Below, piece after piece: positions 9,373-17,109 of a DNA stretch of 29,191 nucleotides. The stretch spans positions 1 through 29,191 of the IMG/VR virus record IMGVR_UViG_3300034105_000532; one strand, given 5' to 3'. The number at the start of each line of letters is the position of its first letter. Position 1 is the first letter of the stretch. The position numbers and the translations under genes were made by a program. Under the pieces are notes generated by a model. It did not search any database, was not told where the DNA came from, and worked only from the letters and a program-made list of their open reading frames with translations. Source of the stretch: a virus.

Positions 9373-9783
9373 CTACTTCTCTTTAAGAGTAATCTCAACA
9401 TTGTAATAAGCACATTGGTTGGGAATATCTCTTCTAATTAATGTTTCTGAATATGATTCTACATAAACAACTGTATTATAGAACGGGTCATCAGGGTCCA
9501 ATTTAATTGATAGCGTAGCTGATGATGGAGCTCTAGCGAGATCGTAAAGATAATTCCTGCTCTTGCGACCATCAATAGTTTCTGATGGTTTATCTGGGAG
9601 ATAAGTAAAAGAGAGAGTATAATTATTCTTTGCATTCTTGATAAATCTTTTTCTATTCCCGTTTAAAAGTTCAGCATTCGCAGCCGATGTGGACATACCC
9701 CCAGTAAATAAACGGTTATGCTCAGTAATCTCTTCCCCATTAAGGACAACAAGATGGGTGATGTTTGGTTGCTGTACAGCCAT
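9373..9783 (-). CDS. Distal tail (Dit-like) protein
   Basis: A 136-aa protein encoded directly after the tape measure gene, with a 1-nt TAATG overlap. It opens MAVQQPNITHLVVLNGEEIT, has a basic loop NRKRFIKNAKNNYTLSFTYL and ends YYNVEITLKEK. Its last 95 residues are paralogous to the C-terminal domain of the next protein. Proteins immediately after the tape measure in siphophages are usually Dit, the ring that closes the tail tube and carries the tip. Length is short for Gram-positive Dit proteins, so it may equal only the ring-forming domain. Family membership is inferred from position and predicted beta content; no signature motif proves it. Confidence 0.65.
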   Translation of the reverse strand: MAVQQPNITHLVVLNGEEITEHNRLFTGGMSTSAANAELLNGNRKRFIKNAKNNYTLSFTYLPDKPSETIDGRKSRNYLYDLARAPSSATLSIKLDPDDPFYNTVVYVESYSETLIRRDIPNQCAYYNVEITLKEK

Positions 9784-12700
9784 TAGTTAATACCATTATA
9801 GCTTGTAAATGTTCTGGACTCATTGCCAGCAGCTTTATTCATTTTTGGAAGAACATTAACATTGTAACTCTTCATCATTGACTTAAACCATTCCTCTTCC
9901 CCGACAAATGTTTCAACATTAATATTTACAGTGGATACGCTAGTTGCGCCACCACCAGAATAAGATGGTGATCCAGAAGGTGCGCTAAACCTTGATTGGT
10001 TAATATTCTGCATTGTTCTTGCGCCCATGTTCTTCATAGCGCTAGCGCTGATTCCATAATCTCCGCCCTGTAGCGCTGCAGAGAACGACATTGAAGGTGC
10101 GCTAGGGACATAACCGCCCTTGGCAAACTTTGGCATAAGATTATTATTAAGCTTTTCTAATGCACCAATGCCTAATCTTGAAACTGCTTTTGCATTAATA
10201 ATATATTCCCCACCATGAAGTAATGCGGGGACACCTTGCTGTGTAGGGGCATTTATATATCCACTCGGGATCATTCCACCCTTAGCTCTTGTAACAACAG
10301 CATTACCTATATTTGATCCTGGTCTACCAACACCAGTAATATATTGCTGGTATGTCAACGGGGCTTGTTTTCTCGCAGCTCTGGCTATATTATTATTCTC
10401 AAATGCATCAGCTCTGCCGCCCTGCGTGGTAGGAGTAGTAGGCGTTGTAGGTGGGGCATCAACACCGCCAGCATTACTCTGGGCATCCGCTGCCTGCTCT
10501 GCTGCAACTTTAAGACCTACCCACTTCAAAGTTGTTTCAGTTAACTTGTCTTTTAATTCGTCAAATAATGCTTTATTTATTTTAACATTACTTCTTAAAC
10601 TGTCCGTAATAGCTGTATTGCCATCAATAATAGCTTGATCATAAACTTTCTTAAAGTCAGTAACAAATGTTGTTGATGCTGCTGCAAATGGAGTTAGGAA
10701 CTCTTCGTTAACAATTCGCAAAATTTCTGTTTTAGCAGCAGTGAAATTTCCAACTAAACCAGTGGACACCAAACCAAAAGCATCAATAACACTTTGCTTC
10801 TTTTCCCCAAATTTATCGCCAATGCCAGTAAGCATTCCAAGAGTTGCACCAATAATAGATTGATCAGCTGGAGTAGCGCCCAACCCGTACTTCGTTTGTG
10901 CTTCTGTAACAAGATCACCTAGATTTGTGCTAAATGCACCAATAACCTTGTTTGGCATTTTATCATTTATTGTTGTAACAAACGCTTCAAACATATTTCC
11001 AAACTCTATGCCATTAGCCAGAGCTGCATCCGTAGTAAGCGTCTGTAGTAAACCAATTTGAGTTTGATAATCCTCAATTGTGACAGGAGGGAACTTAGTA
11101 ACTAAAGCTGCTGCTGCTTGGAAATCAGCAATAGACTTATCAAAGAAATCTGAAGCAGCAGTCTTCGCCTCGGCAATAGCAGCCTTAAGAGCATCAAGAT
11201 TTTCTTTTGCCAACTCCTGACCACGCTTTGTCTCAATAGATTTCATGTCTTCACTAAACGATTTCTCGTCTGCACCCTGCTGAAGTTGCATCATTCTTGC
11301 ATCATCAACCCGACCTTCATAGACAGCCAAGGCGTAATTTCTGCGGAACTGCTCATCAGTAAGAGCCTTTTCATCAATGCGCTTACGCTTCTCTGACTCA
11401 TAAGCCATTGTCTTCGTAAGAGACTCTTGTGCTTTTTCTAATTTATCAAGTGTTTCAATCTGGACATCAAATACTTTTAGGGCAGCATCTTTTTGTTTCT
11501 TAAGAGCATCTTCTGCTTGTGACACATACTTATCTACAGCATTCTTCAATTCACCAGCAACATAATCTTGTAGAGTCTGTAGGACATCTACAATCTCTTT
11601 CTTCATCGCCTCGCCAAGATCACCCTTTGCAAAACCATCACCCATATTGTCAGCAATTGCTTCACCACCAGCCACAGCCTCATCCTTTGTACCATCGCCA
11701 ATGCCCTTGACTGTTCCTTCTGATTTCTTAATACCTTTCTTGACTCCCTTATCAAGAAAATCACTAATAGATCCTGCGACAGAATCCACAGCCCCAAATG
11801 CGGCTCCCTTGCCAGCATCTACTAAACCATACAAGCCATCAATTACACCATCAATACCGTCACCAATAGAACTCAAAAATCCCATACCAGGAAGTTTTGA
11901 TAACCAACCAAATGATTTAGCAACAGCTTTTGGTATAAGTGTAAGAAAACCAATAACTAATTTTACACCAAGAGAAATAAGACCAATCATGCCCTTAACT
12001 AAAAGAGCAAAAGCTTTTACACCAAATTTAGCAACTTGTGCAAGAACTGCAGTCAGATAACCAAAAGCGTCACCCCATTTACCTGTAAATACAGAAACAA
12101 CAAACATTACAATATTTAGAATCATGTATAAGTAAGGCTGAACAACATTCATTACAAACTTCTGGAACACCACAGCGACAAATTTAACAGCTTTTGCAAT
12201 TCCGCCGAATGCTGAAACAAGACCACCCACCGCTGTTTTTCCTTCTTTACCACCTTTACCAAACATTGCAAAAAGATCAAGGAACGGTCTTGCAATTTCT
12301 TTTAAAGCATTCTTCAATATGTTAAATGCAGCTTTCAACGCTGAAAAAGCGCCAGCACCTGATTTTTTAAATTGATCAAAATTCTTAACAACGACAGTAA
12401 CTGCAATACCTATTACAGCAATTGCAATACCAATACCTGTTGAAATTAAAGCTAATCTCATTAGCTTCAACGCCATAGTGCCACCCTTAGTAGCACCCAT
12501 AAATCCTCTCATTGCAGTAGTAGCGTTTTTAATTTTTCCAGCTTCTTTGCCAAATCCAGCATCAGCATTTGCTTTAGCTAAATCAGCTACAGCTTTTTTA
12601 CCACCTTGCATAGATTTCGTATAAACACCACTAGGGCTGAGACTACTAACACCAGATTGAACTCTTTCCGCAACTCTCTGACCAAGTAAATTAGTTTTTA

Positions 12701-15700
12701 CAATACGAGACCCAATTCCGCCTCTACCAATTTTATTAGCAGTCTCTTGAGATATATCCATACCTTTATAAGATCTCTGCAAAGTCATTTGACCAGCAGT
12801 GCCTTTTGGTGTATTCGTAATTGTTTGTTTTAAACTAGTAGTTATACCAGCTTTGTCATAAGCTGCTTGCTTAGCAGCCATTGCTGCTCTTTTCTCTGCA
12901 GTTTTAATTCCTTGTAGATGTTGAGTCTTAGATGTTGCTACAGATTGCCTATAAGATTTCATTTGCGCAGCATTCTCTATTCTTATATCAGCCATCTTTT
13001 GCGCATGCAAAGCAACTTCGTCAGCCTGCTGTTGAGCAAAAAGGGTCGCCTGATTTGCTTTCATTTCAGCAAAAATTTTCTTTCTTAACCCCTGGCTTTC
13101 AAGCGGTCCAGCTGGGACACCAACTTGAGGGACAGCTTTTTGTAAACTAAGATCATAGACTCTTTTTGCAGAAGGAGACAAAGTAGCAACCTTGCTTTTA
13201 TCACGCATAGCAGCAATTGCATCTTCAATAGTATTATTATAAAACCCTAACTGCTTAGCAACTTTCCTTCTTTCATCATCTATTAATTGCGAAGTAACTG
13301 AGTTAAATGAAATTTGAGGTGGAGGAGTTAACTGTCTTACTGGCTCTAAATTACTTAAAGCCGATCTAAGAGATGGAGGTCTTTCAATTGCACTTCGCCC
13401 TAAAGCAAACTTTTGCCTTGCTGCTGCGGCACCAGTTAGCGCTCCTGCCTCTGGAATAACTGCTTCAGTTATCCCCGCACCCACCAAAGACATTTGTGAC
13501 CTACCACCAATCCTTTGAGTAGCTGTATTTCTTAAAGATTGATACAGTCTATCTATTTTTTGACGAGTAACTTCAGCAGTAGAACCAAAAGCTACCAATC
13601 CACCTTCGGCAGTTCTTATTTGAGGAAGCATTTTTGCAAATGTTCTACCTAGAACTCCCATAGATGCTTGGAAGGTACCTATTGTAATAACAATTGGACC
13701 CAGCACTGCAAGAAATGTAAGCACAATAGCAACAACTTTAGCAATACTGTCTCTAGTCGCTTGAGTTAAACCTTCCCAATACTCTTGAAATTGCTCAAGC
13801 TTTGCCGACAAAAATTTTATTGCAGGAGCAACTGCTCTTAGTATTTCAGCAGCAAAAAGTTTAAAGTTGTTCTTTATCTTCTGAACAGAAACAGATAAAG
13901 ACTTTAGGGATATATCTAATTCATTATTAGCTATTTCAGTAGCTGTTATCGGACCAGCCAATTCAATAAGCATCGCTCTTCCAGCTTCTGACGCAACTCC
14001 AGCAAAAGTATCTTTTCCTTCTGCACGATCTTTTCTAACTTGTACTGCAACGGCTTTTCGCGCTGCTTTTGCCGATTCAATATCTGTAGTAGACAACGCA
14101 CCACCTGCCCCTTTACCCTTGTAACCATCAACAGTTGCGCCAGCAGTTCCAGCAGCAACCCGAGCAAGAATTCCAATGTCCCTGAAATTTTCAATAGTAG
14201 CTTTTAGAGTTGTATTATTAAATGAATTAAATTTAACAATCGCTTCTTCTGCTATGTTTGCAAGTGAATTTTCTGCAGAGCCAGTTGTTTTTAATTGCTT
14301 ATCAAACAATGCCAATTGCTCAATGGCAATAAACATTCTTGGTCCCTGTCTTTTCTCAAACAATTGTGACATCAACTTCAAAGCGCCTTCTGTTCCTGCG
14401 GCGGAATCTTTAATTTGACTAAACACATCAACAATAGCTTGCAAACCAACTAGCCCAGTTTTTGTGGTTGAATTAAATGCCTGAGTTGCCTCAGTGTTGA
14501 CTCCGTACTGCGCTGCTAACTCAGCCATGAATTTTGTATTCTTTATAGTTGGAAGAATTAATCTCTGTAATGATGTTTTAATTGAAGTTGCTGAAGCTCC
14601 AACATCCAAGCCTGCAGCCTTCATAGGAGCAAGCATCGCTGCAGCTTCTGTCATGGAAAGACCAAAAGCTGTTGCCATTGACCCAACTTCTGGAAGAGAA
14701 TCAGCGAGGTCTTGGAGAGTCAGTGCAGTGACGTTTTCAATAGCGTTAAATATAGCAAGCTGAGTTTGTGCTGCTTTAATCGCCATTGTCTCTCGTTCAC
14801 GAGCATCTGTAACTAATCTGAATGCACCGTTTGCCTCATAAGCCCTCTTCGCATTAAAGAAAAGAGCTTGTGATAAATCTTTTGCTGCACCAATGTCCAT
14901 TCCACCAAGTTTTTCAATACTTGTTGTTAATGTTGTAAGCAATACAATATTCTCTTGTTGAACAATTCCAAGCTCTGCAAAATCTGATGCTAGACCAACA
15001 ACAATATCTTTTGAAACACCAAATCTGGAGCTAACACCCGTCAGCTGCGAGTCTAACGCCTTGAACGCAGATACCATCTGTTTCATCATTGCTGCCTGTG
15101 TCGCAGTTGGCATTTTCCCTTCCATCACACCAACTTTCACAGCGGCTTGCTCAGCACTCATTGCAACGCTGTCAAATACTTTTGATAACCTAGTAGCTTC
15201 TTTATCTACTGCCAACAACGACTGGAAACCCAACCTACCGAACAGCATGATAGGAGCTGTCAAGTTAATCATTAAGCTTCTACCAACAAATTGGGCATCC
15301 TTACCCATTTTTTGCATCTTCAACGAAACGCTAGCAACATCTGAACCAAACGCTCTAACCCTCGCACCACGCATGGAAGCGCTCATGACTTGCAACTGCG
15401 TTTTGGTTGATGCTAGTTCTCTACCTAAAGCAGTAGTTGGACCACCAGCTGTTCTGATTGCCCCTGTATAAGCAATAATATCAGCTTTAAGTCTTTTAGA
15501 TTCTTCGCCAAGAACTCTTTGGTTATCTTTTAATTCCTTAACAGTCTTGGCATGATCTTTCATACCACGATTTGTAATACCTAAAGCTTTATTTACAGCC
15601 CGACTTTGCACATCCAATTTGCTCATTGGAATCGTGATTTCTCTTAAATTGGCGGTTAGCGCTTTAACAGATGCGCTAAGATTAGCTACATCCTTAACCC

Positions 15701-15740
15701 CATTAGTATGGACATTGATTATAAGATCTACATCAGACAT
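9783..15740 (-). CDS. Tail tape measure protein
   Basis: A 1985-aa protein, the longest gene here, placed after the tail chaperones. Residues about 150-560 match the TP901-type tape measure core (SLMINLTAPIMLFGRLGFQS, SLPEVGSMATAFGLSMTEAA, KLMSQLFEKRQGPR). Hydrophobic segments lie near residues 667-690, 1091-1117, 1200-1218 and 1247-1270 and may insert in the host membrane during DNA entry. A long charged coiled coil covers about 1385-1540. The C-terminal region has the repeated tape measure motif ALLHGGEYIINAKAVSRLG and a Gly/Ser linker before the last 60 residues. It sets tail length; about 0.15 nm per residue would predict a tail near 300 nm before any processing. No lysozyme or NlpC/P60 motif was seen. 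The SD is weak, so translation may couple to the frameshifted chaperone gene 45 nt upstream. Confidence 0.95.
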   Translation of the reverse strand: MSDVDLIINVHTNGVKDVANLSASVKALTANLREITIPMSKLDVQSRAVNKALGITNRGMKDHAKTVKELKDNQRVLGEESKRLKADIIAYTGAIRTAGGPTTALGRELASTKTQLQVMSASMRGARVRAFGSDVASVSLKMQKMGKDAQFVGRSLMINLTAPIMLFGRLGFQSLLAVDKEATRLSKVFDSVAMSAEQAAVKVGVMEGKMPTATQAAMMKQMVSAFKALDSQLTGVSSRFGVSKDIVVGLASDFAELGIVQQENIVLLTTLTTSIEKLGGMDIGAAKDLSQALFFNAKRAYEANGAFRLVTDARERETMAIKAAQTQLAIFNAIENVTALTLQDLADSLPEVGSMATAFGLSMTEAAAMLAPMKAAGLDVGASATSIKTSLQRLILPTIKNTKFMAELAAQYGVNTEATQAFNSTTKTGLVGLQAIVDVFSQIKDSAAGTEGALKLMSQLFEKRQGPRMFIAIEQLALFDKQLKTTGSAENSLANIAEEAIVKFNSFNNTTLKATIENFRDIGILARVAAGTAGATVDGYKGKGAGGALSTTDIESAKAARKAVAVQVRKDRAEGKDTFAGVASEAGRAMLIELAGPITATEIANNELDISLKSLSVSVQKIKNNFKLFAAEILRAVAPAIKFLSAKLEQFQEYWEGLTQATRDSIAKVVAIVLTFLAVLGPIVITIGTFQASMGVLGRTFAKMLPQIRTAEGGLVAFGSTAEVTRQKIDRLYQSLRNTATQRIGGRSQMSLVGAGITEAVIPEAGALTGAAAARQKFALGRSAIERPPSLRSALSNLEPVRQLTPPPQISFNSVTSQLIDDERRKVAKQLGFYNNTIEDAIAAMRDKSKVATLSPSAKRVYDLSLQKAVPQVGVPAGPLESQGLRKKIFAEMKANQATLFAQQQADEVALHAQKMADIRIENAAQMKSYRQSVATSKTQHLQGIKTAEKRAAMAAKQAAYDKAGITTSLKQTITNTPKGTAGQMTLQRSYKGMDISQETANKIGRGGIGSRIVKTNLLGQRVAERVQSGVSSLSPSGVYTKSMQGGKKAVADLAKANADAGFGKEAGKIKNATTAMRGFMGATKGGTMALKLMRLALISTGIGIAIAVIGIAVTVVVKNFDQFKKSGAGAFSALKAAFNILKNALKEIARPFLDLFAMFGKGGKEGKTAVGGLVSAFGGIAKAVKFVAVVFQKFVMNVVQPYLYMILNIVMFVVSVFTGKWGDAFGYLTAVLAQVAKFGVKAFALLVKGMIGLISLGVKLVIGFLTLIPKAVAKSFGWLSKLPGMGFLSSIGDGIDGVIDGLYGLVDAGKGAAFGAVDSVAGSISDFLDKGVKKGIKKSEGTVKGIGDGTKDEAVAGGEAIADNMGDGFAKGDLGEAMKKEIVDVLQTLQDYVAGELKNAVDKYVSQAEDALKKQKDAALKVFDVQIETLDKLEKAQESLTKTMAYESEKRKRIDEKALTDEQFRRNYALAVYEGRVDDARMMQLQQGADEKSFSEDMKSIETKRGQELAKENLDALKAAIAEAKTAASDFFDKSIADFQAAAALVTKFPPVTIEDYQTQIGLLQTLTTDAALANGIEFGNMFEAFVTTINDKMPNKVIGAFSTNLGDLVTEAQTKYGLGATPADQSIIGATLGMLTGIGDKFGEKKQSVIDAFGLVSTGLVGNFTAAKTEILRIVNEEFLTPFAAASTTFVTDFKKVYDQAIIDGNTAITDSLRSNVKINKALFDELKDKLTETTLKWVGLKVAAEQAADAQSNAGGVDAPPTTPTTPTTQGGRADAFENNNIARAARKQAPLTYQQYITGVGRPGSNIGNAVVTRAKGGMIPSGYINAPTQQGVPALLHGGEYIINAKAVSRLGIGALEKLNNNLMPKFAKGGYVPSAPSMSFSAALQGGDYGISASAMKNMGARTMQNINQSRFSAPSGSPSYSGGGATSVSTVNINVETFVGEEEWFKSMMKSYNVNVLPKMNKAAGNESRTFTSYNGIN

Positions 15741-15785: not shown

Positions 15786-16423
15786 TCATGATTCTTCTGA
15801 ATAACCCAGACCAATAGCGGCATTCATAATGTCCCAACTACGCATAGCATCAATCGGAGCCCGATCTTCTGGTGTGTACCAATCTTCTTCAAAGTCAACA
15901 TCAGCACCCTGAGAGGCAGCCAGAGCTTTCATGTTTTTGCTAAACTCATTTGAACAAGCACGATACAATAAAAACAGTTCGTGCAGAATTAGAGATTCTT
16001 CTAACTGCTCTAAATTAGCCCATGCGCCAACCTGCACAAAGACTTCCGACTCATACTTCAGAAGGGGGATCTCATTCCAAGTTAGAGGATCTTCATCCTC
16101 ATCCCCACTTACTCGTTTGGGTTTGGGTCGTTCCCCATTGCAGCAGCCATGACTTCACCGAATGTACGCAAGTCAAGAATATCTTCAAGTGCATCCCTGT
16201 CTGCAGCCAATTCTGGGTCTGACTTACGCAAAGCAATAGAAGCTGCACTAACCATCTTATCAATGTCTTCGTCAGTCATTCCAGTCTCGCTATCAGATTT
16301 CATTTCATTCGCAACCTTCATAAACTCTCTAAGGTGCTTGATTGTCAAAGCCTTCACAACTCTTGTCTTACCATCAGAAAAAGTAATCTCAGTGCCTTTA
16401 AACAAATCAGTGTTTGTTGCCAT
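15786..16423 (-). CDS. Tail assembly chaperone GT (made by -1 frameshift)
   Basis: Ribosomes slipping -1 on CCCAAAC at 16121-16115 leave the 104-aa G frame and continue in an open frame to 15786, giving a product of about 212 aa. I translated the junction: after the slip it reads RVSGDEDEDPLTWNEIPLLK and runs without a stop into the 83-codon frame ending LGYSEES. That downstream frame has no ATG or SD of its own near its beginning (first plausible start is GTG at 16037), so it is an extension, not a separate gene. In siphophages the T extension binds the tape measure and recruits tail tube subunits. Position between tube and tape measure genes agrees. Slippage rate is not known. Confidence 0.88.
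16109..16423 (-). CDS. Tail assembly chaperone G
   Basis: A 104-aa protein, MATNTDLFKGTEITFSDGKT onwards, mostly helical and acidic, ending GNDPNPNE just past the slippery site. It corresponds to lambda gpG in role: it coats the tape measure during tail assembly and is absent from the mature tail. An earlier in-frame ATG lies 15 codons upstream, but the start at 16423 has AAGGAG about 8 nt before it and is preferred. A strong hairpin lies in the gap before it, which may tune its level relative to the tube protein. Confidence 0.85.
   Translation of the reverse strand: MATNTDLFKGTEITFSDGKTRVVKALTIKHLREFMKVANEMKSDSETGMTDEDIDKMVSAASIALRKSDPELAADRDALEDILDLRTFGEVMAAAMGNDPNPNE
16115..16127 (-). promoter_or_regulatory. 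Double -1 slippery site CCCAAACCCAAAC
   Basis: On the minus strand the G frame reads GAC CCA AAC CCA AAC GAG TAA. Both CCCAAAC heptamers are in the X-XXY-YYZ register (C CCA AAC) and share one C, and the zero-frame stop follows 3 nt after the second one. Slippage at either gives the same frame change, differing by two codons' worth of decoding. Confidence 0.88.
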
Positions 16424-16530: not shown

Positions 16531-17109
16531 TTAGATTTGGTCAATGATTTTGCCGTACTCATAACCCGAATCACCAGTTACTGGCAAAATACGGAATGAA
16601 GTTTCAAATACGGTAGCTTCTGCTCTTTTCATTGCAATCATTGAAGTTGTCATTGAGATTGCTCTCTTTGTGTTGAACTTACGAGTCTTCGTCACTGAGG
16701 CTGTTGAGCCAGGTGCTTGACCAGTTACTTGCAACGCATACTCAAAAGGGTTCACGCTTTGTGCACCGAAATGGAATGTTGTTGTGTTAGCTGCTGTGGT
16801 GTTTGCCTTAAGAGCATCTCCACCAATTGTATTATCGTAGTTCCAAGCCATTGCGAGGTTCTTTAATGTACCCTCAGCAAGAGTTGTCTTAACCATAACT
16901 TTAACCTTTGACTGAATGACTCGTGCAGCATCGCCGTACTGGTCAATTTCAATGTCAACCATATCTGGTTCCCACGAAATCTCAAGACCACCTTGGGTTG
17001 CGCCTACATCTGTCAAGCTATCAAAATCTGCGTTTGTCATCGTGATGTTAGAAAGACCAGTTTTAACTGTTGCCTCACCAACTACGATATTGGAAGTTGT
17101 TACTGCCAT
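16531..17109 (-). CDS. Major tail (tube) protein
   Basis: A 192-aa protein with a single SD of near-perfect form (AGGAGG) before its ATG, as expected for an abundant protein. It has the character of a siphophage tube subunit: N-terminal strand MAVTTSNIVVGEATVKTG, an early loop TQGGLEISWEPDMVDIEIDQ and beta-rich C-terminal half ending SGYEYGKIIDQI. The segment 'xxGGxxxxWxPxxxxxxxDQxG' matches the start of tube proteins in many actinophages. It lies between tail completion genes and the G/GT chaperones, the standard position. No Ig-like C-terminal extension is present. The gene is followed by a strong hairpin. Confidence 0.85.
   Translation of the reverse strand: MAVTTSNIVVGEATVKTGLSNITMTNADFDSLTDVGATQGGLEISWEPDMVDIEIDQYGDAARVIQSKVKVMVKTTLAEGTLKNLAMAWNYDNTIGGDALKANTTAANTTTFHFGAQSVNPFEYALQVTGQAPGSTASVTKTRKFNTKRAISMTTSMIAMKRAEATVFETSFRILPVTGDSGYEYGKIIDQI

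Follow-up and report, generated by a model that had tools for sequence, protein, structure and literature searches.

We find that the tail assembly chaperone genes of this metagenomic phage carry the signals of a programmed -1 ribosomal frameshift, and that the 3' member of two overlapping C CCA AAC heptamers is most likely the main slip site, with the 5' member contributing a minor share at most (a reading to which we assign a probability of roughly 0.78). The window, by which we mean the whole 29,191-base stretch analysed (an IMG/VR virus record), carries its tail genes on the minus strand. The frameshift signal itself is ordinary and well supported, and the tandem of heptamers is real and specific to one lineage.

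The two reading frames, G and T, are a tail-assembly-chaperone pair producing G and GT, and the chaperone identity and -1 frameshift proposed in an earlier note on this DNA are supported by homologs, gene order and a conserved slip site. The genes run major tail protein, G, T and tape measure along the minus strand, an order shared with annotated Streptomyces phages, and both neighbours of the pair have PHROGs matches (those of the upstream gene being led by "protein with Ig domain" at 5.2e-22, followed by major tail protein at 6.4e-06). Searches of viral contigs returned 64 loci related to G and 56 related to T. Furthermore, G matches 33 Streptomyces phage records, the best 20 of which are all annotated as tail assembly chaperones, and T matches 28 named-phage records (27 from Streptomyces and 1 from Rhodococcus phages), where it corresponds to the extension of the annotated chaperones; joined products are annotated in the relatives Francob, Stigma, Patelgo, Yaboi and NiceHouse. 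The predicted structure of G (mean pLDDT 78.5) has as its best match A0A6J5QVP5, a viral "Tail assembly chaperone" (96% identical, E 4.8e-16). In Pfam no match above cut-off was found for the pair, no solved structure is related to it by sequence, and a fold search gave no useful match. The 134 stretches in genome contigs that fitted our search pattern include none encoding a relative of G, and so no host was obtained by that route; the phage relatives suggest that the host is an actinobacterium.

Table 1 Features of the chaperone locus in the window, all on the minus strand
Feature	Coordinates	Strand	Basis and remarks
Gene G, tail assembly chaperone, 104 aa	16109..16423	-	Translation and 64 related loci
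-1 reading frame (T)	15786..16154	-	Translation and 56 related loci; TGA at 15788-15786
Tape measure protein gene, downstream neighbour	9783..15740	-	PHROGs tail length tape measure matches
Major tail protein gene, upstream neighbour	16531..17109	-	PHROGs and gene order
5' heptamer C CCA AAC	16121..16127	-	Sequence; 14 nt to stem
3' heptamer C CCA AAC, proposed working slip site	16115..16121	-	Sequence; 8 nt to stem
Middle in-phase heptamer A AAC CCA	16118..16124	-	Sequence; between the other two
Spacer, 8 nt, containing the G stop codon	16107..16114	-	RNA folding
Predicted outer stem, 5' arm GGGGAU	16101..16106	-	RNA folding; homologous stem paired in 7/7 relatives
Predicted outer stem, 3' arm AUCCCC	16065..16070	-	RNA folding; close-relative covariation set
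Predicted inner hairpin GAGGAU-GAAG-AUCCUC	16085..16100	-	RNA folding; relatives' helix has 4 pairs with both-side changes

The G frame ends ATG GGG AAC GAC CCA AAC CCA AAC GAG TAA, giving the C-terminus MGNDPNPNE and a stop at 16111-16109. Within it, at 16127-16115, lies the only copy in the window of CCCAAACCCAAAC, a 13-mer that appeared in 0 of 100 dinucleotide shuffles. The earlier note had read here two consecutive C CCA AAC heptamers in X XXY YYZ phase directly before the stop, followed by a -1 frame open through to 15786, and both observations hold: the -1 frame is open from 16154, past the 0-frame stop, and the portion of T beyond the slip starts at 16115. That reading did omit a third in-phase heptamer, A AAC CCA, which we set aside as a further site on published E. 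coli data, where A_AA.C_CC.A did not reach the shift threshold even when the IS3 pseudoknot was present (PMC4066793), and which is probably not slippery. Across 25 hand-picked ORFs of the window (9033 codon positions) there are 42 in-phase XXXYYYZ heptamers, and CCCAAAC accounts for 4 of these, both tandem members included. The upstream AAUGGGGAACGA, examined by eye, contains none of GAGG, GGAG, AGGA, GGNGG or AGGKG, the Shine-Dalgarno-like motifs listed in PMC4066793 that can act as an optional stimulator. A slip at either heptamer predicts a GT protein of 212 aa, and, as anticipated earlier, the two products would differ, the sole difference being residue 103 (Lys following a 5' or middle slip, Asn following a 3' slip).

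Among relatives, the slip site is conserved beyond what protein constraint would demand, as judged from codon counts. An in-phase CCCAAAC stands just before the stop in 60 of the 63 readable relatives of G (64 loci less one with no stop in its available DNA), and CCCAAAT in the other 3; at the 55 readable T loci (56 less one that starts inside T), 27 have CCCAAAC and 28 are without any XXXYYYZ, carrying GACCCTTCC instead. The 65 distinct G 3' ends all fit one of four sets of slip codons, namely GAC CCA AAC (41), GAC CCT TCC (16), AAC CCA AAC (5) and GAC CCA AAT (3). Elsewhere in G, proline is encoded by CCT 59 times, CCA 55, CCC 17 and CCG 2. Moreover, the -1 frame opens no more than 16 nt before the G stop in 22 of 49 distinct sites, and consequently the shift must fall at the heptamer. 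These observations bear on the proposal that T is a separate protein, made by internal initiation or by re-initiation after the G stop with no frameshifting at all, which we regard as very improbable. A GTG at 16037, the first start codon of the T frame in the window, could be taken in its favour, yet it falls past the conserved IPLLKYE part of T, and 42 of 50 distinct relatives lack any ATG, GTG or TTG in the T frame ahead of the conserved KYE motif. Conservation of the slip codons far above normal codon use also argues against separate synthesis of T, as do the joined products annotated in the relatives named above.

Stimulatory structures usually begin 5-8 nt past the slip site (PMC4066793), and the earlier note had seen no evident strong stem following the tandem. 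Folding contradicts this, since it predicts a 6-bp outer stem that encloses a hairpin and begins 8 nt past the 3' heptamer (14 nt past the 5' heptamer, outside that range), the structure being conserved with compensatory changes in close relatives. In the window alone the predicted structure is modest: a fold of 75 nt has an MFE of -22.9 kcal/mol (z -1.77; 11 of 200 shuffles as good), which is moderately unusual, and under synonymous recoding the outer stem is unexceptional (p 0.20) and the MFE exceptional (z -2.97). Across relatives the case for the predicted stem is convincing. When the T codons of 48 distinct relatives were recoded synonymously in 300 trials, the observed summed stem score of 969 compared with a recoded mean of 577 and a maximum of 654, with p <=0.05 reached individually in only 26 of the 48. 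Folding of 7 close distinct sequences predicts 14 pairs, of which 4 have changes on both sides; 98% of cells are paired and 9 are both-side cells, as against 42-70% paired and no both-side cells in slid versions, and 0 of 500 shuffles scored as high (the number of pairs with both-side changes, taken alone, was reached by 68 of 500). This covariation sits in the inner helix; within this set, changes in the outer stem are confined to one side. The strongest helix begins 3-8 nt past the slip in 34 of 48 relatives and 12-19 nt past it in 14; in the close relatives of the window the helix at 12-19 nt is the inner hairpin, and the outer stem lies at 8 nt. When two clades were aligned together the outer stem did not emerge, because stem registers differ among clades, which were then folded apart; grouping relatives by best stem register was post hoc and was not used as proof.

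The tandem has a narrow distribution. Besides the window it occurs in 4 contigs from other metagenomes, whose G and T proteins are identical to those of the window, and thus it is not an error of a single assembly. Seven sister contigs, with G 87-88% identical, read GAT CCA AAC CCA AAC, so that the 5' heptamer is broken (T CCA AAC) and the 3' heptamer intact, and the close single-site relatives (L013-L028) have no extra Pro-Asn pair. Of the 61 distinct GT proteins placed in a tree, 1 row carries the tandem and 3 rows, forming one clade, carry the broken form; together with 5 single-site rows they make up a supported clade of 9, a placement indicating that the two-copy length arose once or twice within this clade and that the 5' copy can be lost. 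As both copies match the conserved DPN of the G alignment equally well, the alignment is neutral as to which is the older. The tandem is probably a recent, lineage-specific 6-nt (CCAAAC) duplication or length change, of small effect, as far as the sequences indicate. In viral_contigs, GAYCCAAACCCAAACNNNTRR occurs in 29 stretches, of which 4 belong to this lineage, 7 are the sister contigs with T CCA AAC and 18 lie in other genes or frames. A looser tandem pattern gave at least 120 stretches, and the 80 new loci read among the matches listed yielded no further chaperone tandem; one loosely similar context among these 80 belongs to a Q/P-rich protein and was rejected as not being a chaperone. 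On the evidence of the loci covered, the tandem may be rare elsewhere. A limited literature search returned no description of a phage tail chaperone in which two heptamers overlap in phase, and in the portions of PMC5009743 consulted "tandem" denotes a pair of neighbouring codons within one heptamer, or tandem codons, rather than two heptamers.

The earlier suggestions that one heptamer is the rule and that a tandem may raise or buffer the G:GT ratio fared differently. The former is borne out by the confinement of the tandem to the window and 4 near-identical contigs, and the latter finds no evolutionary support. That both heptamers are used, and that the tandem has been selected for its effect on the ratio, is in our view unlikely: each heptamer is intact and in the right phase, slipping at two sites could be additive, and both copies are kept in all 4 other contigs of the lineage (weak evidence, these contigs being near-identical), but the tandem is confined to one lineage, which supplies 1 of the 61 distinct GT proteins, the sister group has a broken 5' copy, and the 5' heptamer lies 14 nt from the stem. 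We rate as still less probable that slippage occurs mainly at the 5' heptamer, with the 3' heptamer as a by-product. The 5' heptamer does follow directly after MGND, matching the slip position of relatives in G; however, its distance to the stem is 14 nt versus 8 nt in close single-site relatives, a spacing that in the window is matched by the 3' copy only, and it is the 3' copy that the sister group has kept.

Since it lies 8 nt before the stem, the 3' heptamer is the one we favour as the main slip site. Under the proposed mechanism, the majority of ribosomes would read G to its TAA and release the 104-aa G protein, and a minority would pause at the downstream RNA structure, whereupon the CCA (Pro) and AAC (Asn) tRNAs in the P and A sites would re-pair one base back on CCC and AAA and translation would continue in the -1 frame, yielding the 212-aa GT fusion. 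Pausing followed by re-pairing of the P- and A-site tRNAs is the standard model (PMC4066793, PMC5009743). The 5' heptamer, as the putative outcome of the 6-nt length change, would be at most a minor additional site. We infer slippage itself, its efficiency and the choice of heptamer from sequence, phase, open frames, conservation and covariation in relatives. In E. coli, C CCA AAG is among the strongest slip sites, and G GGA AAC is weak yet very likely used by insertion elements (PMC4066793); slip strengths in a different host may differ.

Non-canonical motifs occur at the corresponding place in other relatives. CCCTTCC is found in 16 of 61 distinct GT proteins, all in one clade (support 100/99), a sister clade of the window, in which 28 of the 55 readable T loci (within L084-L117) have a conserved GAC CCT TCC ahead of the stop of G, followed after 7-8 nt by a stem that covaries. 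TCC accounts for a small share of the Ser codons elsewhere in G (17 of 205), and GAC CCT TCC is likely a non-canonical slip site. At the homologous place the Streptomyces phages Enygma, Karimac, Yaboi and Angela (L154, L275, L277, L279) have CCCGGAA, which follows the opening of the -1 frame by 0-3 nt. CCCGGAA comprises the commonest bases of the "threetwotwo" motif proposed with PRFect (PMC10885494), which matches the slip of the Karimac type and the shape of the CCCTTCC of the sister clade, whereas the window has a canonical XXXYYYZ. A potential explanation, to which we give even odds, is that the place of the slip is fixed, with the Pro codon sliding onto CCC and the next codon being exchanged (CCCAAAC, CCCAAAT, CCCTTCC, CCCGGAA), in which case X XXY YZZ sites would be genuine evolved slip sites and the tandem an intermediate in moving or renewing the site. 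At X XXY YZZ the second tRNA could re-pair via a middle-base G-U pair, in line with a remark in PMC10885494.

Several further features of the window deserve mention. A very strong hairpin at 16504-16456 on the minus strand lies between the major tail protein gene and G and is followed by a short T run (MFE -30.1, z -7.52, 0 of 200 shuffles as good). Of the 30 distinct stretches folded from upstream of G, nearly all have a similar hairpin (that of L065 is weak), with stems changed and still pairing, and many share an apical GUAU-AUAC-like part; Rfam gave no match. It is possibly a terminator or attenuator that sets the ratio of tail protein to chaperone. On the same strand, the ORF at 24186-23701, within a run of tail-fibre-like ORFs, contains many imperfect copies of a short repeat in which A, N, T, I and Q abound, and the ORF at 1522-1947, which by eye we take to be HNH endonuclease-like, adjoins a phosphoesterase-like ORF at 303-1502.

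The slip heptamer of phage lambda is GGGAAAG, and the window is unlike lambda gpG/gpGT in its C CCA AAC, its two heptamers and its downstream stem. The two have in common a short G, a -1 frameshift extension and an adjoining tape measure gene, and in lambda the binding partner of G is the tape measure and that of the T part is the tail tube protein (PMC5009743). A further comparison is offered by the Stanwilliamsviridae chaperones of Streptomyces phages (examined in Beuffert, Francob, Stigma, Patelgo, Enygma, Karimac, Yaboi, Angela and Circinus), in which G is 31-36% identical in the rows listed, T is detectable, gene order is the same and the slip likewise falls at DPN or DPE codons. They differ from the window in having a single CCCAAAT, or CCCGGAA in the four phages noted above, and in a G stop 43-61 nt past the start of the open -1 frame.

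The value of these findings is modest, and lies in the natural series that the relatives provide, comprising a single heptamer, the tandem, the tandem with its first copy broken, CCCAAAT, CCCTTCC and CCCGGAA. As the slip motif changes, the place stays constant and a stem is present in near relatives, the value of each element could be tested with few reporters. For the tandem, the readout would be a one-residue difference in the tryptic junction peptide, with TFGEVMAAAMGNDPNPNR predicted for a 3' slip, TFGEVMAAAMGNDPNPK for a 5' (or middle) slip and TFGEVMAAAMGNDPNPNE for unshifted G.
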